NCBI GenBank assembly: GCA_018817405.1
Contig: JAHITZ010000058.1
Location: 1 to 39,082 of the forward strand
From: Nanobdellota archaeon
GTDB taxonomy: Archaea; Nanobdellota; Nanobdellia; Pacearchaeales; GW2011-AR1
Reading direction: 5' to 3'
DNA: 39,082 bases
Shown here: in pieces, positions 10,992-39,080 of the stretch
Layout: each line of letters starts with the position of its first letter
Position numbering within the stretch: the first letter of the stretch is position 1
Notes under the pieces: generated by a model
What the model saw: the letters and a program-made list of their open reading frames with translations, nothing else
What the model was told of the DNA's origin: nothing
Database searches by the model: none
Program-made: the position numbers and the translations under genes

Positions 10992-11007
10992 TATTTGTTG
11001 AGGGGGG

Positions 11008-11134: not shown

Positions 11135-11192
11135 TCACTAATGTGAAGAAGTTTAAATATATTTATATATGGAAATGTTTTAATTTAAGGGT

Positions 11193-17991: not shown

Positions 17992-18012
17992 AGAATAACA
18001 CTCAAAACCAAT

Positions 18013-19025: not shown

Positions 19026-19026
19026 T

Positions 19027-20217: not shown

Positions 20218-20348
20218 GACTATTATGTGAGAATCATACTATTTATATCTTTCTGATTTTATGTTAATAGTATTATCTATATTATCATAGAACCATTGGG
20301 AAGGAAATAAGTAAATAAATAGATAACATATATATACATATTATATGT

Positions 20349-24700: not shown

Positions 24701-26350
24701 GATAGTGGAGATGGTGATGGAGGAGATAGTGGAGATGGTGATGGAGGTGAAGGATGGGAAGATAATTATGATAATAATCAGAATGATGACTGGGAAGACC
24801 GTGATAGAGAAGGAAGTAGAGAGATGGAGGAAGACAACGAGGAGAGATGCAAAAAGGATTGTAATGAAGTATGTTATAATAATAAAATCAGGCCATGTGT
24901 TGAATCCTGTATTCGAGAATCATGCGGAGATGAATTAGACTGTGATGTTGATGAAGAAAGTGTAAGGTGCGAGGAAAATTGCAAGGAAGAGAAAGATGTA
25001 AGCGGATGTGTTGATGATTGTTTTGGCAAGTGCGTATCGGGGAAGGGTGATTTTTGGGAAGATGTTGAATCTGATTGGGATGAAGAAGAACATAAAGAAG
25101 AAAAAGGAGTTTATCTGGCAGGAGGTTCTTGCAGGGTTGCGCAAGGAAAGACAGAAGGATTTATTTTCTTTGACGGATGGGGCGAGTCTTTTGAAGGAGT
25201 CAGAGATTTGAAACATAAATATTATCAGGGAGGAGAAGCTGATTGGTGCAAGTATGATTTTGAAAATTTGAAAAAACAAAGAGCAGAATTTGAGCAAGGT
25301 TTTGATGAAGAGTTTGTAAAATGGTTTTTTGAGGATTATTTAGCTAATTCTGCAGAAGACTGGGAGCAGGCTGTTTCCGGGATTTTTGAGCTTTATTGGA
25401 GTGATGTTGATATTTCCAGAGAAATGGGGCATAGAATGAAGTGTCTTGGTATTGACGAGTTTCCAAAGCATGAGTTGATTAATGTTAAGTATGAAACAGA
25501 ATATGGGATGGTGGAATTTTGGGAAGAGCTTAAAACAGCGAGATTGCCTGGGACAGATGAAGAGATAGAACTTATATCTCCTTACATGAAGATTTGGATT
25601 TTTCCTTCTAAGCAGGCTATGAAGAGCATGTTTGGGAAGTCAATGAAAAAGCATGAGTTTCCAGGACCTGATGGTGAAACTGGAGGAGGACTTTCAGAAG
25701 AAGAGAAAGAAGAGATTAGAAATGACCCTGGAGAGATGGAGGATTTAAGAGAAGTGATGGAAAAATACGGCGGAAGTTTTGAAGGGGCTGTCCAGTTTTT
25801 GGATTATGAAACCGGGGAAAATGTGTTTAATCTGTATGTTGAGATTAATGAGGAAGAGCTAATCAATACTGAGCCGATGCTGCCGGAAGAAATGCCGGAA
25901 TTAGACGCACGAGTTGAGCTTGACTTTGAGAAACTTTATGATATAATTTATATTTCAGAAAAGGAGATAATGGGAATAGAGGTAGAAAGTCCTCCGTGGG
26001 ATAGAAAACCAAGAAAGTTGGGAGACAGGATTAAAGGGGCGGTGAGCGGGGCGAAGATGTGGCTTAAAATGAGGAGTTTGATGAATTCTGCAGAGTATTA
26101 TCCTGCTTCTTCGGAGAAAGAAATGAAAATGTTTTTGAAAGATTTTTTTGGGGGGATGATGGGTGGTCCTGATGGGCCTCCTGGAGACGAGGATGAGCAA
26201 GAAGGGCCTGGCGGATGCACAACTGAAGAAGAGTGCAAAGAGTATTGTGAAAATCCTGAAAATAAGGAAGAGTGCATGCAATTTAGCGATAAAACTCCAG
26301 AAGGCTGGGAAGACAGAAAGGTAATGACTGGGGAAGTTGTTAGGGTTTAA
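21734..26350 (+). CDS. Giant acidic Cys-rich secreted protein, 1538 aa
   Basis: A signal peptide (MCKRGLFVLVLVLALVFSLS, cleavage near VSA-GEV) leads into a helical, charged N-terminal region (~25-440). Cys-rich modules follow: CDNNKDDNDNGEIDCAEAQC (~455), CHIPPGNPNNAHTII...HGDYLGEC (~580-612) and several CxxxxECxxxC units. A Glu/Pro-rich linker spans ~882-945, then a short hydrophobic segment and ITGYAV, a GDGGDSGD tandem repeat, another Cys region, and a C-terminal domain (~1115-1460). It ends with TEEECKEYCENPENKEEC and VMTGEVVRV. No C-terminal membrane helix is seen, so it is probably secreted or held by other means. No enzyme motif is recognised. TTTTATTAA lies ~25 nt upstream; its stop overlaps the convergent nuclease gene by 4 nt. 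Confidence 0.85.
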   Translation: MCKRGLFVLVLVLALVFSLSLVSAGEVDDEIKKLTHYAEGYETGNIDYVQLMVYSSSVREKLNEMLGVVSKEEGGLLKQEQIKQVLGEPDEWTKWVWVEMEEREVRLGNEVPVWKKIVFDGKKIQIRLSAQPTLFKKKDFGREENGEKFEQNIEDFDIVEGGYLVYRLHFETEFKRPQEELDIISKFVEIQELAEYYSSNPSQSNAESLAKESVNIERTFEPYFRQSSEDCGKLMNSIFGSENKREIQKVLVQEVEFYGGDNFEAILRLEMCDDCEWHWIGMNLGLEGRGPGFKFPENAMDTDKKQSKERFKDMGTEGFEAETKELVSEMRRLLENGDYGQAMSYSHRLQMLTDAWNEKANNVWEELDKTYRLEEESMSEEERRKIDKNYGWIKREQEKRAKMKDLAGKNYQERKLFYLELFSDYEKKDFYFKQEEWEKRLVEEFREFGEEVCDNNKDDNDNGEIDCAEAQCGGKFCGKFVDATVVGDESGVVEKELYCIAGTCQVKEEIITEKGAVCGNNICEPGEMGELTTHSFPPQEEEENVEEELLAVLLSDNVSEEENGGEGGEEEEGDDSVTVCHIPPGNPNNAHTIIVGASAVSDHLDHGDYLGECTDDDESLLCPQDCVECLVYDALPCSGEVIFSGEDENGCPLPPICIGGEGKCKTNEECVFLCGEGECVWENEADEFGECRLIKLEDCVKPDCVAGEKKIERCQNRDEVVVEICVEGLWEETGVKCEKGGGLGCGKCGNGCMLIKDMMAVDCMQPTEEFECVEENGQCVKKEERGESCTNYCNDYISSMIPECPGHMEISGGYPDCDCNWICDEGAGEECRVKSDCGGENDVCSNGKCVTLPGKVKPECAEINCETGYECVPETGECKKIEGWVEEEEEEKEEEGVPPAHPEEEEESEVPKEQEQEEPEESEQQESEPESEPEVEPEAGAIIGEVVFAPLKAAISYVANVFLDIGKRASITGYAVNGDGGDSGDGDGGDSGDGDGGDSGDGDGGEGWEDNYDNNQNDDWEDRDREGSREMEEDNEERCKKDCNEVCYNNKIRPCVESCIRESCGDELDCDVDEESVRCEENCKEEKDVSGCVDDCFGKCVSGKGDFWEDVESDWDEEEHKEEKGVYLAGGSCRVAQGKTEGFIFFDGWGESFEGVRDLKHKYYQGGEADWCKYDFENLKKQRAEFEQGFDEEFVKWFFEDYLANSAEDWEQAVSGIFELYWSDVDISREMGHRMKCLGIDEFPKHELINVKYETEYGMVEFWEELKTARLPGTDEEIELISPYMKIWIFPSKQAMKSMFGKSMKKHEFPGPDGETGGGLSEEEKEEIRNDPGEMEDLREVMEKYGGSFEGAVQFLDYETGENVFNLYVEINEEELINTEPMLPEEMPELDARVELDFEKLYDIIYISEKEIMGIEVESPPWDRKPRKLGDRIKGAVSGAKMWLKMRSLMNSAEYYPASSEKEMKMFLKDFFGGMMGGPDGPPGDEDEQEGPGGCTTEEECKEYCENPENKEECMQFSDKTPEGWEDRKVMTGEVVRV
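24665..24748 (+). repeat. 24-bp in-frame tandem repeat (GDGGDSGD)
   Basis: GGTGATGGAGGAGATAGTGG with its following AGAT makes a 24-nt unit present three times without mismatch (24665-24736), plus a partial fourth. It encodes GDGGDSGD units between ITGYAV and the next Cys domain. Perfect copies suggest recent expansion or frequent length change by slippage. The Asp/Gly pattern could bind calcium. Confidence 0.9.
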
Positions 26351-26835
26351 TTTTCTTCAAACAATTCAAAGTATCTTACTTCTCGTACTCCTCTACGGCG
26401 AGTGCCAACAACTCCGCTGAAACCGATTGTTAAATCAGCTATTTCATCAAGGGAGATACCTCTTTTTTCTAAGAATTCTGATAAGTCTTTTGGATGTTTT
26501 GCAATATACTCGTGATATTCCCCCAATTGCCGACACATATCTTCTCCTGAGGCGCGGGTTAATCTTGATTTGACTTCTATGATAATGAGATGTCCTGGAT
26601 TTTCTGTAAGGAGTATAATGTCTGGGCTTGCATAGTTAGTATAAGACATGTAGCTGTCCAGCAGGATTCCGAGCGATGTAAAGCGAAGCTCTCGCCATGC
26701 ATTTCTAAATTGTGGACTGTGCTCATGAAAAACTGATAGATTTTTATATAACTTTTGTTTTAGTATTCTGTCTATAACTTGTTTATGTAGTTCTTCACCA
26801 CATGTTGAACTAACTTTTTTTCTAGTCTTTATCAT
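26347..26835 (-). CDS. PD-(D/E)XK nuclease-like protein
   Basis: The 162-residue protein contains ASPDIILLTENPGHLIIIEVKSR, an arrangement of D...(I/V)-E-V-K that matches the PD-(D/E)XK nuclease core. A helix with a conserved-looking Gln-Tyr pair (CRQLGEYHEYI) follows, as in many restriction-like and archaeal Holliday-junction-type folds. The C terminus is mixed beta strands. It could be a stand-alone DNA nuclease or a repair/defence protein. It is convergent with the 1538-aa gene and overlaps its stop by 4 nt. The upstream gap holds repeat copy A. Confidence 0.6.
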   Translation of the reverse strand: MIKTRKKVSSTCGEELHKQVIDRILKQKLYKNLSVFHEHSPQFRNAWRELRFTSLGILLDSYMSYTNYASPDIILLTENPGHLIIIEVKSRLTRASGEDMCRQLGEYHEYIAKHPKDLSEFLEKRGISLDEIADLTIGFSGVVGTRRRGVREVRYFELFEEN

Positions 26836-26946
26836 CTTCTATTAAAAGCAGATAGTTGTCACTGTTAAATATCTTTAAGAGTTTTTAAGATTTTAATTTA
26901 TATCTTTTAGAGATTTTTAAATTTAACTGTTTTGTTATGCGGATTT

Positions 26947-27093
26947 TAGTATACGAAAACCAGTTCGCCTGTTTTATCAAAAAGATTAGAATAGAAAATA
27001 GCTTCAAACAGTTTGGTTTTAGGTAATAATACAAATCATTTTTTGGGGGGTTGGAGGAGGTGGGCAAAAGATTATGCTATTTTTATGTTGTAA
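26947..27093 (-). repeat. Dispersed ~150-bp intergenic repeat, copy A
   Basis: Read on the minus strand this copy runs TTACAACATAAAAATAGCAT ... CTGTTTGAAGCTATTTT ... GATAAAACAGGCGAACTGG ... TATACTA. It aligns along its whole length with copy C (35865-36017, + strand), in opposite orientation. Copies B and D match parts. No ORF is present. A and C mark the two ends of the A/C-rich segment of the + strand. Confidence 0.8.
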
Positions 27094-27117
27094 TTACAGT
27101 CAATCATTTTACATTCA

Positions 27118-27621
27118 TCACGTTTCAGAGAACAATTCTGGACTTAAGTCTTTCTTCAAATACAACACATGTTTTGGCTCGCCATTTTTATTCACACCAA
27201 TACAAAAAAGTTCATGTTTATGCAACAAACTCATCATCTCAATATTTCTATTCATAAACAAAGCGTGATTTCCCCATGCAATAACAATCTTCTCAGAACT
27301 TTGCGCTTCTTCTGTAATTGATTTATCATTTTCTCTGCCAACCAGCTCTTTTGTGTTCTTCAAATCTTTTGGAAATGTCGCGCGAAAAGCAAACACATTA
27401 CAAACAGAAACGCTTCCATAGCCCCATTGTTTAGCATAGTTGATCATTCTGCTAACTGTAGGGTCGTTTTTAATTTCATCAGCAGTTGAAGGATTCAAAC
27501 CAATGAACATAATCTGTGGCAGGTTATTATCCCATTTTCTTTTTAATTTATAACGATATTTTTCACATTCAGAAAACAGCGCCTCGCTGTAAACACCCTC
27601 TTTTTCAAATGTTCTAATCAT
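27118..27621 (-). CDS. DUF1643 family protein
   Basis: The 167-residue protein has the DUF1643 signature: FIGLNPSTADEIKNDPTVSR, then WGYGSVSVCNVFAFRATFPK and, later, KIVIAWGNHA. The family is widespread in bacteria and phages; its function is not established, although the fold resembles uracil-DNA-glycosylase-like proteins. A TTATAAA box (27644-27650) about 26 nt upstream indicates a leaderless mRNA. It is divergent from the dehydrogenase gene and 94 nt away. It has the A/C-rich + strand composition of the inverted segment. Confidence 0.85.
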   Translation of the reverse strand: MIRTFEKEGVYSEALFSECEKYRYKLKRKWDNNLPQIMFIGLNPSTADEIKNDPTVSRMINYAKQWGYGSVSVCNVFAFRATFPKDLKNTKELVGRENDKSITEEAQSSEKIVIAWGNHALFMNRNIEMMSLLHKHELFCIGVNKNGEPKHVLYLKKDLSPELFSET

Positions 27622-27715
27622 CTTACTGAATATCTAGAGGAAGTTATAAATGTTTTTGAACCGCGAGATTCACAATCACAACAATCCTTAAAAAAAGCAA
27701 AACTCTCTTCAATAC

Positions 27716-28585
27716 ATGAACATCGGAATGATTGGCATGGGTTTTGTCGGAGGAACAACAGCAAAGGTGCTATCAACAGCGCACCGCATTTTTCCCTACG
27801 ACAGATACAAAGCACCTTACAACACCGACGAATGTATAAAACAATTAGTTCAAAACGCAGAAGTAGTATTCATCTGCGTTCCAACGCCAATGAAAAAAAG
27901 CGGGGAAATAGATTACAGTCCAATGCATCATTCCCTGCAGCTATTAGCTAAAACTGCTGAACAAATCAGAAGAAACCCTGAAGAGATTTTAATAACTGTC
28001 CGGTCAACAGCAGTTTCAGGAACCACTGACAAGTTTACACAACAATATCCTTTCAAATTCGCTTTCAACCCAGAGTTCTTAAGAGAAAAACACGCTTTGG
28101 AAGATATGCAAAATACAAATCGCATTGTCATCGGAGTTCAGGACATTGAATCAGAAGAAAAATTAAAAAGAGTTTACAGACTTTTGTTTCCCAACGCACA
28201 AATAATAACCACAGATAGAAAAACAGCAGAGATGATAAAATACGCTGCAAACGCCACGTTGTCTGCGCAGGTTATGATTGCAAACGAATTATACAAAATA
28301 TGCCAAGCCTTGGGAATTGAATACAAAAAAGTAAAAGACTCGATTCAGCTGGACGATAGGATTGGAAAAAACATGGATGTCCCGGGCCCCGACGGTGATT
28401 TCGGTTTTGGAGGCAAATGTTTTCCAAAAGACCTCAATGCATTAATCTATCTTGCAAGAGAGCACAACGTAAGACCATACTTGTTGGAAGAAGTCTGGCG
28501 CTCAAACCTTAATATAAGAAAAAATCACGATTGGCTTGACATTGCAGGCGCAACTGAAGAAAACAAAAATTTTTCACAGGAATGA
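27716..28585 (+). CDS. Short UDP-glucose/GDP-mannose dehydrogenase-type enzyme
   Basis: The 289-residue protein has the NAD-binding motif GMIGMGFVGG (4-13), CVPTPMKKSGEIDYS, the FNPEFLREKHALEDM loop, the central dimer helix AEMIKYAANATLSAQVMIAN, and the catalytic Cys in GFGGKCFPKDLNAL. These enzymes oxidise nucleotide sugars (UDP-Glc, UDP-ManNAc and similar) to uronic acids for surface polysaccharides. The usual third domain, about 120 aa that binds the nucleotide, is missing and the protein ends soon after the catalytic region. It may be a naturally short form. CTTAAAAAA about 25 nt upstream fixes the start. Confidence 0.88.
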   Translation: MNIGMIGMGFVGGTTAKVLSTAHRIFPYDRYKAPYNTDECIKQLVQNAEVVFICVPTPMKKSGEIDYSPMHHSLQLLAKTAEQIRRNPEEILITVRSTAVSGTTDKFTQQYPFKFAFNPEFLREKHALEDMQNTNRIVIGVQDIESEEKLKRVYRLLFPNAQIITTDRKTAEMIKYAANATLSAQVMIANELYKICQALGIEYKKVKDSIQLDDRIGKNMDVPGPDGDFGFGGKCFPKDLNALIYLAREHNVRPYLLEEVWRSNLNIRKNHDWLDIAGATEENKNFSQE

Positions 28586-28713
28586 AAATTTAGCCCAAGT
28601 CAAAACCACAGTTATAACCCAAAGCAGAAGGAGGAGATTGCAAAGTAACCCCTTTACCTGTTAATTTCAGGAGGGTTGGCTATTATTGAGGATATTATTT
28701 TTAATTCAGCAAG

Positions 28714-29250
28714 TCACAAATCAAACATAAAATACTCTGCATTCTTTACATTAGTCATTAAAGAATCCTCATCTCCTAACTCATTAAAAATCACCCTGGC
28801 AGCAATGACAACTGCTTCATGCGCAACAATCAAAACCCTCGCATAATTCTCCTTTTTCAAATCTTCTAAAAATTGTTTAACACGAGCTTTGACATCCAAA
28901 AAAGACTCTCCTCCTTCCGTCTTAAAGTTAATTATATCTCCGGATTTATTTCTTTGTTCAATATATTCCAAATAATACTTACCCTCAAATCCAAACTTCA
29001 CTTCATTCAATCTTTTATCAATTTTTATCTCTAAATCTCTGCCTTCTCCTGCAATTTCAGCAGTTTCCCTAGCACGGGGAAATTCAGAACTACAAATCGC
29101 ATCAAATCTAATGTGCTTCAACTCCCCCGCAGCTTCCTCTGCTTGCTTCTTTCCGTTCTCAGTAAGATGCACAGGAACAGAAGGATCAAAATTAATAAGC
29201 TTCTTCACGTTGTACTCGCTTTCTCCATGTCGCATAAAGTAGATTTCCAT
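28714..29250 (-). CDS. Histidine phosphatase family protein (phosphoglycerate-mutase-like)
   Basis: The 178-residue protein begins MEIYFMRHGESEYN, with the catalytic RHG motif (7-9). Downstream are CSSEFPRARETAEI (substrate Arg) and LIVAHEAVVIAARV, where the second catalytic His lies. Enzymes of this clan are phosphoglycerate mutases or broad phosphatases; the substrate cannot be told. It is convergent with the nucleotide-sugar dehydrogenase gene (128-bp gap with no recognised feature). TTAAAAAG about 26 nt upstream marks the promoter. Confidence 0.92.
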   Translation of the reverse strand: MEIYFMRHGESEYNVKKLINFDPSVPVHLTENGKKQAEEAAGELKHIRFDAICSSEFPRARETAEIAGEGRDLEIKIDKRLNEVKFGFEGKYYLEYIEQRNKSGDIINFKTEGGESFLDVKARVKQFLEDLKKENYARVLIVAHEAVVIAARVIFNELGDEDSLMTNVKNAEYFMFDL

Positions 29251-29344
29251 ATCAAAAAATAGAGAAGAGGGATTAAAAAGTTTGTTATATAATTCATTTT
29301 ATGACAACCATCAAACTTTTAAGCAGAGAACAACTAAAAAAATA

Positions 29345-29893
29345 ATGGAAACCTTAAATATAATCTTATCTGTCTTGTTAGTATATTTCTCCCTTACATT
29401 AATCATCCCGGCGATAATCGTCCCAAACCTCTGGCTTTACAAAACAAAAAAAACAATAACCTCAAAAAAGCTAAAAGAAAAAATAAAAGAACTGGGTAAG
29501 ATAAAAAATAAAAATCTGTTTGTTAAATCTACATTTTTGTATGTTGCAAAGAGATATTCTGCTGCAACAGGCCCTATCAACTTTCTCGTCAATCTGCCCA
29601 AGCTATTCCAGAACGATCCAAATAAAATAACTGAAAAAAACGGATTTGCCTATTGTCACGTTCAAGACCTTATAATAAAAACAATCTTAATCGGAAGTAA
29701 AAGATTTAAAGAAAAAGATATTAAGGAAAAAATAACCTTCTCAGCAGCTATTCATCAACATCTTGAAGTTAATATTGATGGCAAAAAGATTAATTTAGAT
29801 CCGTGGGCATATGACCTAGGAGTTCCTTACGGAAAATATCTCACAATATCCACATCTTTAAGAAATTTATTGCATTCCTTAACAAAACTATAA
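29345..29893 (+). CDS. Membrane-anchored transglutaminase-like protein (tentative)
   Basis: The ORF track starts at a TTG at 29282, but an ACTTTTAAG box ~28 nt upstream favours ATG 29345, giving 182 aa. One N-terminal helix (LSVLLVYFSLTLIIPAIIV) anchors it. The soluble part has FAYCHVQDLIIKTIL, then IHQHLEVNIDGKKINLDPWA. The spacing of Cys, His and Asp (C...HxHLEV.IDG....DPW) fits the transglutaminase-like protease fold. The activity could be peptide or amide hydrolysis, or it may only bind. This is motif reading by eye; another fold is possible. Confidence 0.55.
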   Translation: METLNIILSVLLVYFSLTLIIPAIIVPNLWLYKTKKTITSKKLKEKIKELGKIKNKNLFVKSTFLYVAKRYSAATGPINFLVNLPKLFQNDPNKITEKNGFAYCHVQDLIIKTILIGSKRFKEKDIKEKITFSAAIHQHLEVNIDGKKINLDPWAYDLGVPYGKYLTISTSLRNLLHSLTKL

Positions 29894-29925
29894 AAGTTTA
29901 AAACCTCTTTCTTCTTTAAAGTCGC

Positions 29926-30903
29926 ATGAAAAAAACATTCAAATACCAAATGAAGCCTGCATTTGAAGAACGAATGAAATCTCTCATCCCAGACAAAGAT
30001 GACTTCGCCCAATTCGAAAAAATAATTCATCAAGAACCACTAAGTTTTATCAGATGCAACACAATTAAAATTTCCCCTTGTGAATTATTAAAAAAATTAA
30101 ATAGAAAGAGCTGGCAAGTCAAACAGCCATATCCCAATTTTCCAGAAGTCATGCTCATTGAGTCCGACCTCTTACCGGGAGAACTAGGCAATGCACTTGA
30201 ACACCAACTCGGCTACTATTACATCCAAGAAGTTTCATCAATGCTCCCCCCGATAGCACTTAACCCACAACCTGAAGAATTAATTTTAGACCTAATGGCG
30301 TCACCTGGAAGCAAAACAACTCAAATCGCAGCTAAAATGCAAAACAAAGGCACGGTCGTCGCCAACGACTTAAAAATTCAGAGAATAAAAATCCTTGTCT
30401 CGAATTTAGAACGTTGTGGGGTAACAAACACAATTATAAGCAGAAAAGATGCCATAGCATTATGTTCAAAACTAGCTAATTTAAATTACACGAAATTCGA
30501 TAAAATACTTGTCGACGCACCTTGCTCTGGCGAAGGCACACTCCGCTCATCTCCAAAAACATTCATAATCTGGAATCACAAGATAACCAAATCTCTTTCA
30601 AGACAACAAAAAAAGTTCATTGCCTTTGCATTAAAATGTCTGAAAAAATCTGGGGTTCTTGTCTACTCAACATGCACCCATGCCCCAGAAGAAAATGAAG
30701 AAGTAATAGACTTCGCGTTAAGGAACTTTCCAGTAAAAATTGAAACTCTCGCCCTTCCTTTAAAATGCCGCCCAGGTATAACAAAATGGAAAGACAAAAC
30801 ATTCCATCAAGATGTTAAAAAAACCTGCAGAATCTACCCTCAAGACAACGACAGCGAGGGTTTTTTTGTTGCAAAGCTTAGGTTGTTGGAGGAAACAAAA
30901 TGA
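29926..30903 (+). CDS. NOP2/Sun-family RNA cytosine-C5 methyltransferase
   Basis: The 325-residue enzyme has the AdoMet motif ILDLMASPGSKTTQIAAKM, the general Cys motif DAPCSGEGTLRSSP, and the catalytic STCTHAPEENEEVIDFAL. These are the hallmarks of NSUN/RsmB-type m5C methyltransferases acting on tRNA or rRNA. The N-terminal region (FIRCNTIKISPCELL) is the usual RNA-binding front. It overlaps the next gene by 4 nt (ATGA) and a PUA-type protein follows two genes on, suggesting a shared RNA-modification unit. TTTAAAA about 25 nt upstream marks the promoter. Confidence 0.93.
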   Translation: MKKTFKYQMKPAFEERMKSLIPDKDDFAQFEKIIHQEPLSFIRCNTIKISPCELLKKLNRKSWQVKQPYPNFPEVMLIESDLLPGELGNALEHQLGYYYIQEVSSMLPPIALNPQPEELILDLMASPGSKTTQIAAKMQNKGTVVANDLKIQRIKILVSNLERCGVTNTIISRKDAIALCSKLANLNYTKFDKILVDAPCSGEGTLRSSPKTFIIWNHKITKSLSRQQKKFIAFALKCLKKSGVLVYSTCTHAPEENEEVIDFALRNFPVKIETLALPLKCRPGITKWKDKTFHQDVKKTCRIYPQDNDSEGFFVAKLRLLEETK

Positions 30904-31280
30904 GATTAAACCATGAAATCCTACAAGAAATTGCAAGGCAAGCAAAAATCCTAACAGCTCGAGACTACGTTTCTAAAGCCGTTTATTGTATTAATCTCCC
31001 TGTAAGCCACCTTCCACAAAGAGAAAGTCACTCTTTAATTCCAATACGCAATTCAACAGGCCACATTATAGGATATACTTGCTTCACAAGAGAGAGAAAA
31101 TATCGAGAAGACGAAGGAAAAATTGTTTGCTATTTCATGCCTGAAACAAAAACTCCGATTACACGAAGAGAAAAATATCATACTCGCACAAAACCTTGTT
31201 CCCCTGCTTCAAAAAATGCAGAAAGTTATGCTCCTACGTTTCGCTTATCAAACGAAGAAGATTCCGGCAGGGAAATATAA
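30900..31280 (+). CDS. Hypothetical protein in the RNA-methyltransferase operon
   Basis: The 126-residue protein is translationally coupled to the NSUN methyltransferase (ATGA overlap) and ends 2 nt before the PUA-protein start. It has a compact beta-rich middle (SLIPIRNSTGHIIGYTCFTR ... KIVCYFMPETKTPI) and a Lys/Arg- and Ser-rich tail likely to be disordered. No family is recognised. Its place suggests a role in RNA modification or an accessory to the enzyme. Confidence 0.65.
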   Translation: MRLNHEILQEIARQAKILTARDYVSKAVYCINLPVSHLPQRESHSLIPIRNSTGHIIGYTCFTRERKYREDEGKIVCYFMPETKTPITRREKYHTRTKPCSPASKNAESYAPTFRLSNEEDSGREI

Positions 31281-31282
31281 AA

Positions 31283-31753
31283 ATGATAAAATTCATAAAA
31301 TCCAGCGAAAAAAAGAAAATCCTAGCAGTGCTTGGAGAACAATATGGCCTTTCTTCCCTTTCTTACCTGCTAATTGAAGGAGGAAGGAAAAAACTCCGCG
31401 CTTTTTCAGGCTCTTTGTCAAAAGAAGAAATCCTCGGCTTAGGAAACCTAACAAACATTGAACTAATAGGCATGTACATAATCAGCAGAAGAGACCAAGA
31501 TTTAAGAATAAACTTCGACGCCCTCTCAATTCCAGAAATAAAAAACCAAATTTCAAAAAACATAATTAAAATCAGCAAACAACAACTTGAACTCTGGATG
31601 AGAGGCCACGATTTAGAAATAAAATGTGAAAGAGGCCCAGTAGTTCTCCAATTCCAAGATGATTTTGTAGGAATTGGAAAATCCAACACAGAGAAGATTT
31701 TTAATTATGTGCCGAAGGAGAGAAAGTTGAAGACTCCCTTACCAATTAGTTAA
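31283..31753 (+). CDS. PUA-domain protein, partner of the NSUN methyltransferase
   Basis: The track begins at 31196 inside the previous gene; the ATG at 31283, just after its stop, is chosen (156 aa). The C-terminal part, LELWMRGHDLEI...GPVVLQFQDDFVGIGKSN..KIFNYVPKERKLKTPL, matches PUA domains found at the C-terminal end of archaeal NOP2/NIP7-type proteins. PUA domains bind structured RNA. The N-terminal ~90 aa resemble the pre-PUA region of that family. It is probably the RNA-binding partner of the methyltransferase encoded two genes upstream. Confidence 0.75.
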   Translation: MIKFIKSSEKKKILAVLGEQYGLSSLSYLLIEGGRKKLRAFSGSLSKEEILGLGNLTNIELIGMYIISRRDQDLRINFDALSIPEIKNQISKNIIKISKQQLELWMRGHDLEIKCERGPVVLQFQDDFVGIGKSNTEKIFNYVPKERKLKTPLPIS

Positions 31754-31759
31754 TTTGTT

Positions 31760-31885
31760 TTGTTACAACATCAAAATAGCATAATTCTTTTCTCACACAA
31801 TCCGACCCATTAAAGATTATTTGATAAGGATATTACCTAGAACCTTATTGTTTGGAACTATTTCTTATGCCCTTTTACCTATACC
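31760..31885 (+). repeat. Dispersed ~150-bp intergenic repeat, copy D (partial)
   Basis: TTGTTACAACATCAAAATAGCATAATT matches copy C at the same end (one difference in the first 26 nt). The middle (GATTATTTGATAAGGATATTACCTA) is also similar, and the match fades near the TTTGGAACTATTTC part. It sits in the 183-bp gap after the PUA gene, upstream of the promoter TTATAA (31909-31914) of the next gene. Confidence 0.7.
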
Positions 31886-31936
31886 GGCTCTCTCCATTTC
31901 CGAAACAGTTATAACCTCTTTTTTCCCAAAAAAATT

Positions 31937-32308
31937 ATGAGGATACAAAGATACTTGCTGAAACATCCAGATAGAGGAGCTTACTTAGGAAAGCACATAG
32001 GAGCAGAGGGGGAAATGTTTAATTGGTATGTTGCTGATACAAGCGAAGGAGAGGCAATAGCCGTACAATCAAACACAATTGCAGCAGAAGCAGATGCATT
32101 TGTTAAAGATATTTTTCTGCGAACATTTACTTTACAGTTAAATCCAAAAATTCCATACATAGTAAGGAAATGTCTTAATGGATTTGACGTCACTGTAACT
32201 GAAAACCGCAACCCTGGGCAAATGATTGCTTTAATACATGGGATTAAAGAAAGGAGGTTGAAATATCTTTTTCAGTCTTCCTCTGATCCAAATGGAGCCT
32301 CGCCCTGA
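31937..32308 (+). CDS. Hypothetical protein, 123 aa
   Basis: The protein starts MRIQRYLLKHPDRGAYLGKH and reads as an alpha/beta domain (AIAVQSNTIAAEADAFVKDIF ... YIVRKCLNGFDVTVTENRN). The tail is short and polar. No family, membrane segment or metal motif is recognised. TTATAA at 31909-31914 lies about 25 nt from the ATG. A short, GNAT-like sequence follows its stop. Confidence 0.6.
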   Translation: MRIQRYLLKHPDRGAYLGKHIGAEGEMFNWYVADTSEGEAIAVQSNTIAAEADAFVKDIFLRTFTLQLNPKIPYIVRKCLNGFDVTVTENRNPGQMIALIHGIKERRLKYLFQSSSDPNGASP

Positions 32309-32380
32309 CTGTTAACATTCTCTCCAACAAAACCCGCAGCAGAAATTTACAGACCTCACGGTTTCCTTGAAGTAGAATAA
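32309..32380 (+). pseudogene. Fragment resembling the C-terminal end of a GNAT acetyltransferase
   Basis: Directly after the previous stop an open frame of 23 codons reads ...SPTKPAAEIYRPHGFLEVE and stops. The N-P-x-A-x-x-x-Y-x-x-x-G-F pattern is typical of the last helix and strand of GNAT enzymes. The rest of such a gene is absent, so this is likely a gene remnant. Too short to be certain. Confidence 0.3.
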
Positions 32381-32399
32381 TCTCTGACTCACAAAAAAC

Positions 32400-32576
32400 C
32401 TATTCATCACAAAGACCTAAAGCAACACACAACTTATCGACAACATCATCAACAACTTCTGGATTTTCAAGATGTTTTTCAAATCGCTGATAAGCCTGAA
32501 AAGTTTTCTTTCTGATTAATTCGCAACATCTGGTATTATCTTCGCAATTTTCTGAGTCATAATCTTCTCTTACCAT
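32400..32576 (-). CDS. Small acidic Cys-containing protein, 58 aa (below ORF-track cutoff)
   Basis: This minus-strand ORF is not in the track. It begins MVREDYDSENCEDNTRCCEL, continues as a helical charged segment (IRKKTFQAYQRFEKHLENPE) and ends KLCVALGLCDE. It has five Cys and may bind metal or form a small helical bundle. A TTTAAATA box shared with the divergent MetAP2 gene lies ~26 nt upstream. The stop is TAG at 32400-32402. Function unknown. Confidence 0.55.
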   Translation of the reverse strand: MVREDYDSENCEDNTRCCELIRKKTFQAYQRFEKHLENPEVVDDVVDKLCVALGLCDE

Positions 32577-32597
32577 AACTTCTCTCCAACCAAACGT

Positions 32598-32606
32598 TAT
32601 TTAAAG
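32598..32606. promoter_or_regulatory. Shared palindromic TATA box between divergent genes
   Basis: TATTTAAAG, read as CTTTAAATA on the other strand, lies ~25 nt from the minus-strand ATG at 32576 and ~25 nt from the + strand ATG at 32627. One TATA core is at the right distance for both leaderless genes, so their initiation may compete. Confidence 0.5.
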
Positions 32607-32626
32607 CTTTGCTTCATAAAAATTAG

Positions 32627-33514
32627 ATGGAAAAGGAACAAATAGAAAAACTAAAAAAAGCAGGCGACATCGCAAAAAAAGTAAAAGTCTTTGCCAGAGA
32701 AATAATCTGCAAAGACATCCCCCTTCTAGAAATCGCAGAAAAAATAGACGCTAAAATTCTTGAACTCGGCGGAAAACCAGCTTTCCCGATAAATCTTTCA
32801 ATCAACGAAATCGCAGCACACTCAACTCCAAGCCATAACGACGACCAAAAAGCCCACGGCTTGCTAAAAATAGACATCGGGGTACATATTGACGGCTTTG
32901 TCGCAGATACAGCTTTCTCCCTTGACCTTGAGAACAATGAAGAAAACAAACAACTGATTGAAGCAGCAGAATCTGCATTAGAATCTGGAATCAAAGCAAC
33001 AGACTACCATACAGAATTAAGAGAAATCGGCAAGGCGATAGAAAACACAATTAAATCCCGCGGTTTCCAGCCAATAATAAATCTCTCAGGCCACTCAATT
33101 GACCAATACGACCTCCATTCAGGAATTACAATACCAAATTACGACAACTTAAAAGAATACAACTTAGAAGAAGGAGTCTATGCAATTGAACCATTCTCAA
33201 CTTCAGGCCACGGCAAAGTTCGCGATGGAAAACCCTCTGGAATTTATCATTTAGAACCAGGCAGTGGTCAGGTCCGAGACCCATTTGCCAGAGAAGTTCT
33301 AAACTACATTAAAGAAAAATATCAAACCCTGCCTTTCTGCTCTCGCTGGCTTGTCAAAAAATTAAGTACAAGAGCACTCATAGCATTAAAACGCCTGGAA
33401 GAAGCAAACATAATCCACCAATATCTTCAATTAGTTGAAATCAATCGTAAACCAGTTGCACAGGCTGAGCATACGCTTGTTTTAACAAAGAATGAGAAGA
33501 TTGTTACGACGTAA
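32627..33514 (+). CDS. map: Methionine aminopeptidase, type II
   Basis: The 295-residue enzyme removes the initiator methionine from nascent proteins. Metal ligands are visible: D in LKIDIGVHIDGFVADTAFS (two Asp), H in NLSGHSIDQYDLH, E in GVYAIEPFSTSGHG and E in AQAEHTLVLT. HSTPSHNDDQ near residue 65 includes the substrate His. The ~60-aa insert in the C-terminal half (REVLNYIKEKYQTLPFCSRW) defines the type II (archaeal/eukaryotic) class. It has the promoter described above and is A/C-rich on the + strand. Confidence 0.97.
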   Translation: MEKEQIEKLKKAGDIAKKVKVFAREIICKDIPLLEIAEKIDAKILELGGKPAFPINLSINEIAAHSTPSHNDDQKAHGLLKIDIGVHIDGFVADTAFSLDLENNEENKQLIEAAESALESGIKATDYHTELREIGKAIENTIKSRGFQPIINLSGHSIDQYDLHSGITIPNYDNLKEYNLEEGVYAIEPFSTSGHGKVRDGKPSGIYHLEPGSGQVRDPFAREVLNYIKEKYQTLPFCSRWLVKKLSTRALIALKRLEEANIIHQYLQLVEINRKPVAQAEHTLVLTKNEKIVTT

Positions 33515-33523
33515 ATTAAATAT

Positions 33524-33586
33524 GGTACACGAAAACCAGTTCGCGTGTTTTATCAGATGGGATAATAAACAATAGCTTCAAACAAA
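33524..33586 (-). repeat. Dispersed intergenic repeat, copy B (core only)
   Basis: On the minus strand, TTTGTTTGAAGCTATT...GATAAAACACGCGAACTGG...GTACC matches the right half of copies A and C. The left half is not recognisable. It begins 9 nt after the MetAP2 stop and lies upstream of the promoter GTTTAAAAG (33632-) of the next gene. Confidence 0.75.
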
Positions 33587-33662
33587 ATGAATTAATAACT
33601 ATCTGCTACAATTACTCGTAGCATTAACAAGGTTTAAAAGATTGTAACCCTCCATTAATATA

Positions 33663-34163
33663 ATGCTAGAGAAAAAATTTTACAAGGTTGGTTTTTACAT
33701 AATATTGGTTCTACTAATATTTTCCCTCCTCTTATTCTTTTTTAATAAATTTACTCAATGTCCTAAGTGTGGACAGTGCGAGGCATGCCCTGCAATGGAA
33801 GAAGAAGCACTTATGGAATCTTTAGTGTCTTCATGGGGGAAAAATGCATTCAATGAAAGTGAAGTACTTTTCAATGTGGCAGTTTATAACTATGGGTACC
33901 AAGAAGCAAGAAACATTGTCATCCAATGTAATGTTTATAACACTGATGAAATGGGTTATCTTGTAGATAACACCCCTGTAGTGAGAGTATCAGAAAATGT
34001 AGGAACTGTAGGTTCAACCTCTGCTAAAACCATAGAACTAATGAAAAGCAATCCTCCCAACTTTTTGGATAGTGCAACAGCATTTTGTGATATTATCAGT
34101 TGTGACAACTGCGAAATTTTAAATGACCGGATTCCTGAATTGACTGAGTTTTCTCCAGCGTAG
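33663..34163 (+). CDS. Membrane-anchored protein with CPxCGxCxxCP motif
   Basis: The 166-residue protein has one N-terminal helix (VGFYIILVLLIFSLLLFFF) and no cleavage motif. After it comes FTQCPKCGQCEACP, four Cys that may bind a metal. The rest is beta-rich (VLFNVAVYNYGYQEARNIVIQCNVYN), like FxLD/CARDB-type extracellular sandwiches, with two more Cys pairs near the end (FCDIISCDNC). It is likely an extracytoplasmic domain on a stalk. GTTTAAAAG about 27 nt upstream marks the promoter. Function unknown. Confidence 0.7.
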   Translation: MLEKKFYKVGFYIILVLLIFSLLLFFFNKFTQCPKCGQCEACPAMEEEALMESLVSSWGKNAFNESEVLFNVAVYNYGYQEARNIVIQCNVYNTDEMGYLVDNTPVVRVSENVGTVGSTSAKTIELMKSNPPNFLDSATAFCDIISCDNCEILNDRIPELTEFSPA

Positions 34164-34174
34164 AATGAAAATTT

Positions 34175-34307
34175 AGGTTTTCGTAATAGAAAACCTTTCA
34201 ATCCGAGCAATTGTCAGGGAGGAGCAGAGGTTTTTCACATACCAAAAACATTTAACTCGAAGCTTCGTGAGAAGCGAGAGTCTAAGGTTTTCGCAAGCGA
34301 AAACCTT
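34175..34307 (+). other. Three hairpins upstream of tRNA-Tyr
   Basis: AGGTTTTC/GAAAACCT (34175-34182/34189-34196) lies just after the 166-aa gene. CTCG..CTTC-GTGA-GAAG..CGAG (34256-34278) has a GNRA-type loop, and AAGGTTTTCG-CAAG-CGAAAACCTT (34284-34307) has a 10-bp stem. The first and third share the AGGTTTTC sequence. The last overlaps the tRNA TATA box (TTTAATAA, 34306-34313). They may end the upstream transcript or belong to a structured RNA. Confidence 0.5.
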
Positions 34308-34336
34308 TAATAACCTCATTCTTCTTTTCATATTAT

Positions 34337-34499
34337 CCCCGCATAGCTCAGTGGTTAGAGCGTCCGGCTGTAGAATAGTGCAGACATTCCTTTATTGAGG
34401 ACAAGAATGAAGCGCAATTAGCCGATCTTTCACGTCTGAAGAAAAGTAAAAAAGCATGCAGACCCCGGAAGATCCCCAGTTCGACTCTGGGTGTGGGGA
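34337..34499 (+). tRNA. tRNA-Tyr (GTA) with 90-nt intron
   Basis: The mature part folds fully: acceptor CCCCGCA/TGTGGGG with discriminator A; D-stem GCTC/GAGC with GG in the loop; anticodon stem TCCGG/CCGGA with loop C-T-G-T-A-G-C (anticodon GTA, Tyr); variable AGATC; T-stem CCCAG/CTGGG with TTCGACT. The intron lies between positions 37 and 38. CCA is not encoded, as is common in archaea. TTTAATAA at 34306-34313 is ~27 nt upstream. Confidence 0.97.
34374..34463 (+). other. tRNA-Tyr intron with bulge-helix-bulge splice motif
   Basis: The exon stem TCCGG/CCGGA is joined to the 4-bp central helix CTGT (34368-34371)/GCAG (34458-34461) by 3-nt bulges AGA (34372-34374) and ACC (34462-34464). Cutting after the second bulge base (AG|A and AC|C) gives a 90-nt intron at 37/38. 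This is the archaeal endonuclease motif. The intron is long for this position, and its interior shows no convincing guide-RNA boxes. Confidence 0.9.
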
Positions 34500-34504
34500 T
34501 AAAT

Positions 34505-34525
34505 GGAGACTGCTATGCAGTCTCC
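34505..34525 (+). terminator. Perfect 9-bp hairpin just after tRNA-Tyr
   Basis: GGAGACTGC-TAT-GCAGTCTCC begins 5 nt after the tRNA discriminator. Its position suits a processing or termination signal, though there is no T-run. A second perfect 9-bp hairpin AAACTTTTT-TCT-AAAAAGTTT is at 34600-34620. Confidence 0.4.
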
Positions 34526-34629
34526 TCATACTCACCCTGTTGTGCCTGCGGCAGACAACTTCGCTTCCTGCGAAGCTATCTAAGTTTTTGAACTCATAGA
34601 AACTTTTTTCTAAAAAGTTTGTATTTGGG

Positions 34630-34645
34630 CTCTGGGTGCGGGGAT
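34630..34645 (+). repeat. Near-copy of the tRNA-Tyr 3' end (attachment-site-like)
   Basis: CTCTGGGTGCGGGGAT repeats 15 of 16 bases of the tRNA 3' end (34485-34500, CTCTGGGTGTGGGGAT) in direct orientation 145 bp away. Such duplications arise when integrative elements use a tRNA 3' end. Nothing element-like lies between. It also forms the arm of a GGGGATT/AATCCCC hairpin (34640-34665) over the end of the next convergent gene. Confidence 0.5.
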
Positions 34646-34656
34646 TTTTTTATTTC

Positions 34657-35220
34657 TCAATCCCCCACAAAAATCTTTATTGGAATCTTTAGCTCATCAG
34701 CTGTTGCTCTGTCTTCATCCTCAAGCCAGGCTGAAAGAATCACGTTTCTGTTATGCTCTCCTTTACTAATCACAACCCTAACCATAGAATCCTCTCCTTT
34801 AACCTTCACATCGTCAAGCGGAATAACAGAAACTGTAAAACTTTGACGTTGTCCTGGCAAAACCCTTGCGCTGTTTCCAGAACCTATGAAACTTCCGTCT
34901 TCATCAAACGTAAAACAATCAGAAGAAGGTACAAACTCCTGAAAATCGGAAAAAGAACAACCCAGCCGGATTATTTCATCATTCATATTCCGGATTTCAA
35001 AACTTTCCTTATTGTCCTTCCCAATAACAGCGACCATTTCTATATTTTTAGGCGTCAAAATATTATCAAACAAATTCTGTTTCACACTTAGTTTTGTTCC
35101 CTCTCCACTGACAACATCTCCTGTTACAGAAGTTTGAAAATAATATGCAACTAACACAAAGAGAACAACTGCAATAATCAAAACAATAATCACAACAAAA
35201 CCTGCCTGCCCCTTTTCCAT
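34657..35220 (-). CDS. Pilin-like single-helix protein with TGDVV motif (187 aa)
   Basis: The protein starts MEKGQAGFVV, resembling an archaeal class III (pilin) signal with possible cut KG|QA. It is followed by a hydrophobic helix to ~28 and TGDVV at residues 33-37. The rest is a beta-rich extracellular domain (SFEIRNMNDEIIRLGCSFSD ... SFTVSVIPLDDVKV). The neighbouring 138-aa protein shares the N-terminal layout. It could be a pilin subunit or a secreted anchored protein. TATTTAAG (35242-35249) lies ~25 nt upstream. Whether it is processed cannot be told. Confidence 0.7.
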   Translation of the reverse strand: MEKGQAGFVVIIVLIIAVVLFVLVAYYFQTSVTGDVVSGEGTKLSVKQNLFDNILTPKNIEMVAVIGKDNKESFEIRNMNDEIIRLGCSFSDFQEFVPSSDCFTFDEDGSFIGSGNSARVLPGQRQSFTVSVIPLDDVKVKGEDSMVRVVISKGEHNRNVILSAWLEDEDRATADELKIPIKIFVGD

Positions 35221-35392
35221 GTTTTTATGAGTACTATGAAATATTTAAGTTTTCTTAAGGTCTAGTATACGTAATTTAATGATAGAAAACAAAAAATGTT
35301 AACAAACACACAATATCCACAAAGAAGAGATTTAATACATAATTATCTTAATATTACTCATCAATTAAACCGATGTAAATGAATCAACAAAG

Positions 35393-35809
35393 TCAAACAG
35401 CCCCTCTCACATTCCCCTCAACAGTCGCATCTTCTCTTCCAGAAAAAGAATAAACAATCCCAATCTTTCCACTAAACTCTTCTCCTTCAACCAAAGAACA
35501 CTCAACTTCAAAAATTCTTGATTCCCCAGAAACGATTTGCTTTCCCCAGCTTATAGAACCACACCCCTCAACATCCAAAGAATTTATTAAATAATCCCTT
35601 GGCCCGGCATTGCGAATATCTAACTTCACACCGTCTTTATTTACAACCCAAGCCCTTAATTCAAACGGCCCGTTTAAAAAATTCGCTTTTTCCTCAGAAA
35701 CAACGCTTCCTGTAGTTGAAGGTTTGAATGCAAATCCAATAATGACAAATACAATAATTAAAATCGCAAATCCAACAACCACGCCAATAGGCCCCTGAGC
35801 TTTTTCCAT
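35393..35809 (-). CDS. Pilin-like single-helix protein with TGSVV motif (138 aa)
   Basis: This paralogue of the downstream gene starts MEKAQGPIGV (possible cut KA|QG), has a helix to ~28, and TGSVV at residues 33-37, exactly the same positions. The domain after it is beta-rich (FELRAWVVNKDGVKLDIRN ... GKIGIVYSF). It carries two Cys (GCGSI and VECSL) that may form a disulphide. TATTTAAAG about 26 nt upstream and repeat copy C precede it. It is 172 nt upstream of its paralogue, which has its own promoter. Confidence 0.7.
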   Translation of the reverse strand: MEKAQGPIGVVVGFAILIIVFVIIGFAFKPSTTGSVVSEEKANFLNGPFELRAWVVNKDGVKLDIRNAGPRDYLINSLDVEGCGSISWGKQIVSGESRIFEVECSLVEGEEFSGKIGIVYSFSGREDATVEGNVRGAV

Positions 35810-35864
35810 GATAGATAAAGAGATGCTTTGTATTTAAAGTTTGTTCAGATAATAAAATTCGTTT

Positions 35865-36017
35865 TTGTTACAACATTAAAATAGCATAATTTATCGCCCA
35901 CCACATCCACCCTACCCACTGAGATTATTTGAGAATATTACTATTTAAAACATACTGTTTGAAGCTATTTTTTATTCTATCCTTCTAATAAAATAGGCGA
36001 ATTGGTTTTCTATACTA
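35865..36017 (+). repeat. Dispersed ~150-bp intergenic repeat, copy C
   Basis: The + strand reads TTGTTACAACATTAAAATAGC ... ACTGTTTGAAGCTATTTT ... AATAGGCGAATTGGTTTTC ... TATACTA. It is the inverted match of copy A (26947-27093) at the other border of the A/C-rich segment. It fills the gap between the polB stop (36021) and the pilin-like gene promoter. Confidence 0.8.
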
Positions 36018-36020
36018 CAA

Positions 36021-38342
36021 TCAAAACAGCTTTGTCTGCCTAGTGTTTTGGCATAGGTCTTCAAAATCTTTGTCAAACAGGGAGAGTATTTGTTCTGCAA
36101 TTGGCTTGATTTGTTTTTCAATGTAATGCTCGTAGTCAATCTTGTGTTTTAATCTCTGAATTGGTTCCGGTCCGTCAAGAGTGATGTAATACTCAATGAT
36201 GTTTGATTCAATGGAAGGGAGTTTTCTGGCTGCTTTCACATGAGGAGGGGTTGTTTTCGTGTACTCCTTGAGGTCTTTTCTAATTGACTTTCTATATAAG
36301 AGTTTGCTGTCTAATTTTCCCTGCCAAATTTTTTTGATGTATTCACGGATGAATTTTTCTATTGGCTGGTTGTGGAACAATTTGTCTAATAGCTCAACCT
36401 GAAATTCCTTGGCCGCTTCTGTCCAATCTCCGCGAATTGCCTCTAAACCAGTAATTTCAATTTTCTCCCTGCCTCCTGGTTTTTCTACAAGGCCTGCGTA
36501 ACGTTTTTTGGCTGCTGCCTTTCCTCCACGAAGGTGGGGAATCATCAAAGAAAGATATTGTTTTTCAAATTCCAACTCAAGAAAGGATTTGCGATTGTAT
36601 TTCTTTTTGATGTAGTTTTTATAAAAGTTATTTATGTGGTCTTGAATTTCTTTCCCAAGTTCATTGGCTTTTTGTTTTCCTAGATTGGTTTCGATAAATA
36701 CTGAATCTGTGTCGCTGTAAATTGTTTTGTAACCTTTCTTTTTGATTTCTTCAGCAGTTAGTTTTATTAAAAACTGACCGAAGTGTGTGATGGCGTTTGC
36801 CATTTTCAAATTGAAGTATCTAAGATTTGGAGAAGCTAAAACCCCCCAAAATGAAAGCATGATAACTTTGATTGCATGATTTGATAATTCTCGGTTTTCT
36901 TTTTTTGCTTTTTCTCTTGCTTCATGAAGTTTTGTTAAAATCTTCGGCAGGATTCCGTCTTGATTTTTGAAACACGCGCCGTTGGGTGCCTGCACGCAAC
37001 CCCTTTCCTTTTTCTCTAAGAATGAAGCTGGGTCAATGTTAAATGTTTGAATAATTGAAGAATATAGTGCTTTGAAATCTAAAACTAAAACATTCTTGTA
37101 AAGCCCTGGCTTGGCGCTGAAAACGTATCCGCCTGTGATTCTTTTTTCTTTTTCTTTATACTCGTTTGTCGGTGAAACAAGATTGTTTTTTCTTGCTTCT
37201 CTAATGTAGAGGGAGTCAAAAGCTACAATTGAACCAGATAAACGGTCCATTGTGAGGCCTGTTAATTGGGAACGTTCAATGGCAAGGTCTATTATTTTTG
37301 TTTTTTCCAGCATTTCATAAACAAGTTCGCAGTCTAAGAGATTGTAATCAACTAGTTTTTGCTGAGACTTCTCGGTATTGTCCTTGTAGAGTTTTTCAAT
37401 TTCAGCATGCCTATCTTTTCCTTTTAATAATTTTCCCTTGCCAAGCAATGCCTGTGACACATCTTCTAAAGTTAGGGAAGCGAAGTCAGCGTATTTTATA
37501 GTCGGGGCTTCTTTTATGAAAGGGTCTTTGATTAAGTTTAAACCGTCGAGAACTTGTCTGCCTGAGAGGTCTATGCTTGACGAGCGGAAAAAGTTTGATT
37601 CAATCCTGAATCTTGGTTCGTCGTTTGTTCTCCCGATATCAAATTTTATTTTGTGTTTTTTGAATAATTCTCTAAGAAAAACAAAATCAAAATCAATAAC
37701 ATTCCAGCCGGTTATGATGTCTGGGTCTAGCTTAAGCAATTCTGCTTTGAATGTTTCAAGACATTCTTCTTCGTTCTTGCAGGAAACTGTGTTTTTTAGT
37801 CTATGAGAAGTTATCATGAAGTTTTTTTGATAATTGCCTGAGTGAAGGCCTATGCAGAATAGTTTTCCTTTTTTGTCTGACTCTATGTCTATTGAGAGAA
37901 TTTTTAATTTCGGTTTGTGGTCTCTTATCGGAGAGATTTCTGGTTCGTGATAAATGCAGTCAATTTTTTCAGATGGTTCGTTGGAGCCTTCAATATTTAT
38001 GCTTCCTAACAAGTCGTTGTCTATGATAAACTTGTAATGGGGTTTTAAGTCAGCTTCATAGATTTCTATTTCTTTGCGATATTTTTTGTATGCGTTGTTT
38101 AAGTCGGTTTTATTGTCAAAAGAAAACCTTACAACTTCTTCTCCTTTGAAATTTTTTAGTTTGGTTTCTTCTGGAATTTGTTTTACCTTTAATTTTTTTG
38201 AATCTTTCTTTTTCACAAAGAAGTATGGCTTGAATTTATTGATTGTTGCGAAGGACTGGCCGTTTTCTAGTCTTCCGAATAGTTGGATTACTGTCTGATT
38301 GTCAATGATTTCATTGGTTGCATAGATGATGAAGGCTTTCAT
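36021..38342 (-). CDS. polB: DNA polymerase family B (PolB/Pol II-like)
   Basis: The 773-residue enzyme has the 3'-5' exonuclease motifs LSIDIESD (Exo I), WNVIDFDFVFL (Exo II) and YNLLDCELVYEM (Exo III). Polymerase motif A is DFKALYSSIIQTFNIDP, motif B KVIMLSFWGVLASP and motif C YSDTDSVF, with KKRYAG following. All catalytic acids are kept. Motif A has Y-S in place of the usual Y-P, and motif B has L-S-F-W-G in place of N-S-x-Y-G. Length and FNIDP recall the Pol II-like branch. It would replicate or repair DNA with proofreading. ATTATAA is ~25 nt upstream of the start at 38342. Confidence 0.95.
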   Translation of the reverse strand: MKAFIIYATNEIIDNQTVIQLFGRLENGQSFATINKFKPYFFVKKKDSKKLKVKQIPEETKLKNFKGEEVVRFSFDNKTDLNNAYKKYRKEIEIYEADLKPHYKFIIDNDLLGSINIEGSNEPSEKIDCIYHEPEISPIRDHKPKLKILSIDIESDKKGKLFCIGLHSGNYQKNFMITSHRLKNTVSCKNEEECLETFKAELLKLDPDIITGWNVIDFDFVFLRELFKKHKIKFDIGRTNDEPRFRIESNFFRSSSIDLSGRQVLDGLNLIKDPFIKEAPTIKYADFASLTLEDVSQALLGKGKLLKGKDRHAEIEKLYKDNTEKSQQKLVDYNLLDCELVYEMLEKTKIIDLAIERSQLTGLTMDRLSGSIVAFDSLYIREARKNNLVSPTNEYKEKEKRITGGYVFSAKPGLYKNVLVLDFKALYSSIIQTFNIDPASFLEKKERGCVQAPNGACFKNQDGILPKILTKLHEAREKAKKENRELSNHAIKVIMLSFWGVLASPNLRYFNLKMANAITHFGQFLIKLTAEEIKKKGYKTIYSDTDSVFIETNLGKQKANELGKEIQDHINNFYKNYIKKKYNRKSFLELEFEKQYLSLMIPHLRGGKAAAKKRYAGLVEKPGGREKIEITGLEAIRGDWTEAAKEFQVELLDKLFHNQPIEKFIREYIKKIWQGKLDSKLLYRKSIRKDLKEYTKTTPPHVKAARKLPSIESNIIEYYITLDGPEPIQRLKHKIDYEHYIEKQIKPIAEQILSLFDKDFEDLCQNTRQTKLF

Positions 38343-38942: not shown

Positions 38943-39080
38943 GTGACATCCTCCCAGCCCTAAAGGGTTGACGCGAAGCGTCAATTCCTCACTTCGTTCG
39001 GAACTGGGCGTCCTTTCGTTTTACGCGTGGTGCATCTGTTGATTTTCGACGTAATCATAAGCCCGCTAAAATCACTATTC
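38943..39080 (-). mobile_element. IS200/IS605-type right end (right contig end, inverted copy)
   Basis: Reverse complement of 1-139 with one base missing (TTTTAGCGGG instead of TTTTGAGCGGG). The boundary GTGAC at 38943 matches the left copy and the flank differs. It repeats the four-way-junction fold on the minus strand. If it includes the tail of a tnpB gene, the indel would shift its frame relative to the left copy. The contig probably ends here because the element is multi-copy. Confidence 0.7.

Follow-up and report, generated by a model that had tools for sequence, protein, structure and literature searches.

Features of the locus

The window (the whole 39,082-nucleotide stretch of DNA analysed here) is contig C23 of a draft MAG (1.07 Mb, 66 contigs, estimated 82% complete). 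It encodes a family B DNA polymerase (PolB), the closest counterpart of which among named records belongs to a Candidatus Pacearchaeota MAG (64% identity), followed by that of an archaeal MAG (50%). The features around polB, which serves here as the reference gene, are given below with the evidence for each; keto denotes the G+T fraction at third codon positions.

26347-26835, minus strand: closest gene on the left side of the inversion, without Pfam match (keto-rich strand, 0.63)
About 26948-27097, plus strand: repeat copy A (RPT1, ~150-bp core), left inversion boundary (nhmmer/blastn family search and skew switch at 27151)
27098-35863, both strands: inverted segment of ~8.8 kb with an A/C-rich plus strand (skew and gene order compared with relatives)
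27118-27621, minus strand: DUF1643 protein (PF07799, E=2e-44)
27716-28585, plus strand: UDP-glucose/GDP-mannose dehydrogenase family gene (Pfam scan and synteny)
28714-29250, minus strand: histidine phosphatase (Pfam scan; same-block orthologues in G003, G008 and G009)
29282-29893, plus strand: conserved protein with orthologues in G003 and G002 (no Pfam match)
29926-30903, plus strand: RsmB/F-type RNA methyltransferase (PF01189, E=9e-51; synteny)
31196-31753, plus strand: putative RsmF PUA-like RNA-binding protein (weak PF13636 match under the cut-off; synteny)
31758-31868, minus strand: partial RPT1 copy within the segment (family search)
32627-33514, plus strand: methionine aminopeptidase-type M24 peptidase, MetAP2 (PF00557; synteny)
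33523-33619, plus strand: partial RPT1 copy within the segment (family search)
34337-34499, plus strand: tRNA with a long anticodon-loop intron, reading as tRNA-Tyr (GUA) (RF00005)
About 35864-36015, minus strand: repeat copy C (RPT1), right boundary, adjoining the polB stop codon (family search and skew switch at 36042)
36021-38342, minus strand: polB, just beyond the right boundary (PF00136)

The intron in the anticodon loop of the tRNA is ~90 bases long, and ARAGORN missed this gene. Elsewhere in the window, a GC-poor block of neutral composition (16909-21677) encodes an HNH nuclease, a GmrSD-like N-terminal domain, a Fic protein and an IS240/IS66-type transposase; it resembles a mobile or defence island of recent origin. 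Two genes encode very large proteins (21734-26350, 1538 aa; 11193-15734, 1513 aa), the former of which has no Pfam match and contains an Asp/Gly-rich repeat (about 24649-24768). Furthermore, both ends of the window carry a 129-bp repeat in inverted orientation (11-139 and 38943-39071), which is found at about 28 places, mostly contig ends, with 98-100% identity, and which probably breaks the assembly. TnpB was considered as a partner of this repeat and rejected, as no TnpB gene was found in the genome.

Strand composition changes at two points

Strand composition was followed as the plus-strand keto fraction at third codon positions, a measure that removes most effects of coding direction. This fraction is 0.58-0.73 upstream of ~27.1 kb, 0.35 for ~27.15-36.04 kb and 0.67 beyond, and the low-keto (A/C-rich) state of the middle part is independent of gene strand. 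Indeed, genes on both strands have values of 0.60-0.81 at 0.7-10.5 kb and of 0.28-0.40 at 27.1-35.8 kb, and polB (minus strand, 36.0-38.3 kb) has 0.66. The exceptions inside the segment are two small genes near 0.5 (31937-32308, 0.48; 33663-34163, 0.50). Outside it, the block at 16.9-21.7 kb, which resembles an insertion, has 0.47-0.55, and the giant gene at 11.2-15.7 kb departs in part of its length. The original prediction, which had described a plus strand that is A/C-rich at ~27.1-35.9 kb and G/T-rich on either side for genes of both strands, is thus borne out at third positions.

Maximum-likelihood change points were placed at 27151 on the left (95% support 26821-27187; log-likelihood gain 89) and at 36042 on the right (95% support 36030-36048, an interval bounded by the start of the polB coding region at 36021; log-likelihood gain 117). 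A two-state path led to identical places. As had been predicted, the switches coincide with repeat copies A and C: each is no more than 60 bp from one of them, where a distance of more than ~1 kb would have counted against an inversion. Most long contigs of this genome have one skew sign over tens of kb whatever the gene strand, as expected for replication-strand asymmetry, and a double flip was found on few contigs, the window among them.

Gene order in related genomes

polB and the MetAP2 gene are co-directional and 5-10 kb apart in four genomes of the same genus (G002, G003, G004, G006) and in one of another genus (G017), and they are also co-directional in most other relatives in which both genes are close together on one contig. 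In the window, polB is opposed to the MetAP2 block. An exception among the relatives is the distant named record L118 (PolB 50% identical), where the two genes are adjacent and divergent.

The internal order of the block in the window is essentially that of the relatives, and it is the orientation relative to polB that differs. In G008, polB is followed by orthologues of the genes at 27716, 28714 (reverse), 29926 and 31196; in G003, it is followed by orthologues of the genes at 29282, 28714 (reverse), 29926 and 31196 and of the MetAP2 gene, so that small changes within the block also occur. Parts of the same order are present in G006, G004, G002 and G009. The orthologue of the dehydrogenase gene (27716) stands directly after polB in G008 and no more than ~2.3 kb from it in G006. 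In G002, an intron-bearing tRNA gene lies beside that for MetAP2 in the same direction, as in the window (34337-34499), and the block therefore extends at least to this tRNA. If the segment of the window is turned back, polB and MetAP2 genes are ~5.6 kb apart, compared with 5.3 kb in G003.

The relatives also have one skew sign across polB and the block (0.23-0.40 throughout in G008), and in contig pieces from both G008 and G009 polB and the block are co-directional with one sign. As co-direction and a single sign are shared by the relatives, the derived state belongs to the genome studied here: no relative has the order and skew of the window, and the block is inverted in this genome alone. 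For the genes at 33663, 34657, 35393 and 26347, no orthologues could be recognised in the stretches of the relatives that were examined, so that the left ancestral junction is revealed by skew and not by gene order. The DUF1643 gene (27118-27621) was likewise not seen beside polB in these stretches.

Could the pattern have arisen without an inversion, from a horizontally acquired or translocated block, from codon selection or from a replication origin or terminus? The neutral composition of the genes at 31937 and 33663 and of the 16.9-21.7 kb block resembles that of recent arrivals. However, the relatives have the same block with the same polB neighbour, vertically inherited orthologues and uniform skew, and the orientation alone differs; furthermore, an origin and a terminus 9 kb apart are implausible in a genome whose other contigs hold one sign over tens of kb. 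We regard an explanation of this kind as hardly credible. Compared with its relatives, this genome has the segment inverted, with boundaries that are located to a few hundred bases or better and a repeat at each of them.

Two further observations concern this locus in relatives. Orthologues of the genes at 1145-3022 of the window are ~4-7 kb from polB in G005 (contig C78) and G007 (contig C213) and ~33 kb from it in the window, which points to more rearrangement around the locus. The polB open frames of G025, G030 and G031 are ~1220-1230 aa long, compared with ~780-850 aa elsewhere, perhaps due to inteins.

The repeat family at the boundaries

Copies A and C are inverted relative to each other and 79% identical end to end (158 aligned columns including gaps, with 26942-27093 aligned to 35868-36022), with a longest exact run of 18 bp. 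The full-length match and the opposite orientation that had been claimed for them are both found; the strands are merely numbered the other way round (A plus and C minus here, A minus and C plus before). The repeat, designated RPT1, is AT-rich and occurs at 37 places in the 1.07-Mb genome, nearly always intergenic and in partial to full length; its copies are about 60-80% identical. Among the other genomes of the genus, G002 has 19 weak matches, G001 has one and the remaining seven have none, and no RPT1 was detected at the homologous locus in the stretches of relatives examined.

RPT1 is short, non-coding, multi-copy and dispersed, as MITEs are. Its 5' terminus reads GTAGTATA, and imperfect inverse forms of this terminus were recognised by eye ~20 bp past the 3' end of the core in several copies. 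These features suggest an old MITE-like element. Compared with what is described for prokaryotic MITEs (PMC10969869), RPT1 is similarly short, non-coding, intergenic, multi-copy and lineage-restricted, with apparent imperfect inverted termini in some copies, but it differs in its short and degenerate termini, in the age of its copies (about 60-80% identical) and in having no detected target-site duplication (flank-to-flank matches of 3-7 bp at the ends of the 152-bp core, against a mean of 4.5 for mismatched flanks). A structured RNA was considered and rejected, as the consensus fold (-2.6 kcal/mol, 5 pairs) is not conserved. An Rfam search with copy A gave only sub-threshold chance matches, and an exact pattern of the conserved 3' part had no match in the viral collection searched.

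The length of the exact runs bears on the assembly as well. In a draft MAG of 66 contigs, in which high-identity repeats break many contig ends, two mis-joins at repeat copies might mimic an inversion. Nevertheless, an exact stretch of at most 18 bp between A and C is too little to confuse a typical assembler, and both mis-joins would have had to occur in one contig; an artefact is highly improbable.

Some 3.5% of all intergenic positions have an RPT1 copy no more than 60 bp away, so that a chance coincidence of copies and boundaries is unlikely but not negligible. When segments were placed at random between intergenic positions, inverted copies stood at no more than this distance from both ends in 0.17% of cases for ~9-kb segments genome-wide and in 1.2% for segments of 5 kb or more in the repeat-rich window. 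Inverted RPT1 pairs share a contig in 15 cases, and A/C is the only pair that bounds a clean flip. Skew switches in general are not associated with RPT1 (those on contigs C22, C39 and C65 have no copy there). Direct repeats, compared as a control for the inverted ones, were too few for a statistical comparison.

A second inversion in the same genome

Contig C54 contains a reversed-skew block of ~20 kb (~30.5-50.5 kb), which is bounded by inverted 73-bp repeats (30542-30614 and 50443-50515) with 97% identity and exact runs of up to 36 bp. This repeat is unrelated to RPT1 and has an internal hairpin. Genes within the block are reversed in order and orientation (nine to ten compared with G001 and G003, six compared with G004), and the flanks are colinear with G001, G003 and G004 on the left and with G001 and G003 on the right. 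Together with the results for the window, this amounts to two inversions specific to this genome and bounded by two different repeat families. On contig C6, a reversed-skew block (10259-14437) is bounded by direct copies (93%) of the C54-type repeat; it may be an insertion.

These data bear on the role of the repeats. The inversion of the window may be real with the repeats as bystanders, breaks in the gene gaps where repeats gather having been rejoined by end-joining or through a transposase that acts on MITE-like ends. The low identity and short exact runs of A and C are in line with this, as are the intergenic and AT-rich position of RPT1, where breaks would be tolerated, and the imperfect inverted terminus in several copies, as a transposase substrate might have. 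However, inverted copies of the same family at both boundaries are rare among the random placements given above, and the C54 inversion has the same architecture with another repeat. We consider bystander repeats unlikely and recombination inside the repeats the simplest account.

Age of the inversion

Flipped genes should gradually acquire the composition of their new strand. The coding-strand third-position bias of the MetAP2 gene is 0.28 here and 0.24-0.36 in six same-genus relatives, where it is unflipped; for the RsmF-like gene, it is 0.32 here and 0.26-0.43 in unflipped orthologues. As the flipped genes keep the skew of the relatives, the flip took place later than the split from the sequenced relatives, among which MetAP2 identity within the genus is 58-78%. 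The description of the event as "fairly recent" in the original prediction holds only in the relative sense, when the event is set against how far the sequenced species have diverged. By a rough estimate, sequence change after the flip would escape detection up to ~0.1 substitution per site, so that A and C were possibly more alike at the time of recombination.

The age data also bear on another reading, in which the segment is a dedicated invertible switch (phase variation) that still operates, so that the population would contain both orientations. In favour are the inverted repeats at the ends of the segment and the five tyrosine-recombinase-type genes of the genome, although all of these are on other contigs. 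Against this stand the housekeeping nature of the genes in the segment, the absence of a recombinase family among its proteins with a Pfam match, and the repeats, which are diverged rather than near-identical sites. Moreover, a bias equal to that of the relatives suggests a single event and not an equilibrium. Such a switch is very improbable.

Proposed mechanism

We conclude that the segment between A and C was very probably inverted in this genome, after the split from the sequenced relatives, via exchange between inverted repeat copies. The ancestral order would have been polB, the genes for UDPG-dehydrogenase, histidine phosphatase and RsmF-like proteins, the MetAP2 gene and the intron-bearing tRNA, mostly in the direction of polB and all with one replication-strand composition. 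If two copies of a dispersed intergenic repeat, inverted relative to each other, underwent reciprocal exchange, the intervening DNA would be flipped and each junction would be left with a hybrid copy. As the strand bias has not yet been re-set by substitution, the flip would remain visible as a skew island. The earlier proposal of a flip by recombination between A and C holds for the inversion, which skew and synteny establish; for the repeats as its cause it is likely rather than proven, a crossover inside them being inferred.

The most likely agent would be RadA-type homologous recombination between diverged copies, and a RadA/Rad51-family gene is present in the genome. Strict homologous recombination would act poorly on copies with 79% identity and a longest exact run of 18 bp, unless these were formerly more alike. 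MutS domain V was found neither in this (incomplete) genome nor in six of the nine same-genus genomes, and an absence of MutS would ease recombination between diverged copies. More broadly, MITE-like repeats that are dispersed in this DPANN lineage and specific to it might be recurrent inversion hot-spots that tolerate ~20% divergence, perhaps because MutS appears to be missing, with some inversions possibly still polymorphic; we find this quite doubtful.

Relation to known systems and implications

Inversions flanked by inverted repeats are known as a major mechanism of rearrangement in bacteria (Pseudomonas aeruginosa and Escherichia coli; Wang et al. 2017, PMC5372343). As in those cases, order and orientation are reversed relative to relatives and the inverted repeat pair stays at the ends. 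The inversions described there are >10 kb and separate strains of one species, whereas the segment reported here is ~9 kb, comes from an uncultured Pacearchaeota-type archaeon, carries diverged (79% identical) MITE-like copies of 150 bp at its ends and also shows up as a skew island. The detection of inverted genes by local skew has been proposed (Merrikh & Merrikh 2018, PMC6220195), and whole-gene skew alone has been criticised as error-prone (Liu & Zhang 2022, PMC9098844). As in the former, an inverted fragment was detected here from strand composition that reverses locally; our analysis differs in the use of third codon positions and of independent synteny, the standard asked for by the latter.

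The process is of a known kind, and the event in the window is ordinary genome evolution. Its interest lies in the agreement of skew and synteny in an uncultured archaeon, together with the C54 case. Replication-strand asymmetry is strong in this genome (third-position keto up to ~0.8), so that a flipped block can be read from one draft contig. With two flipped blocks confirmed by synteny, strand composition can serve to trace recent inversions in uncultured DPANN archaea, for which strain collections are lacking, and two repeat families can be named as likely inversion agents. If the hot-spot reading were true, chromosomes in this DPANN lineage would be shuffled by small inversions.
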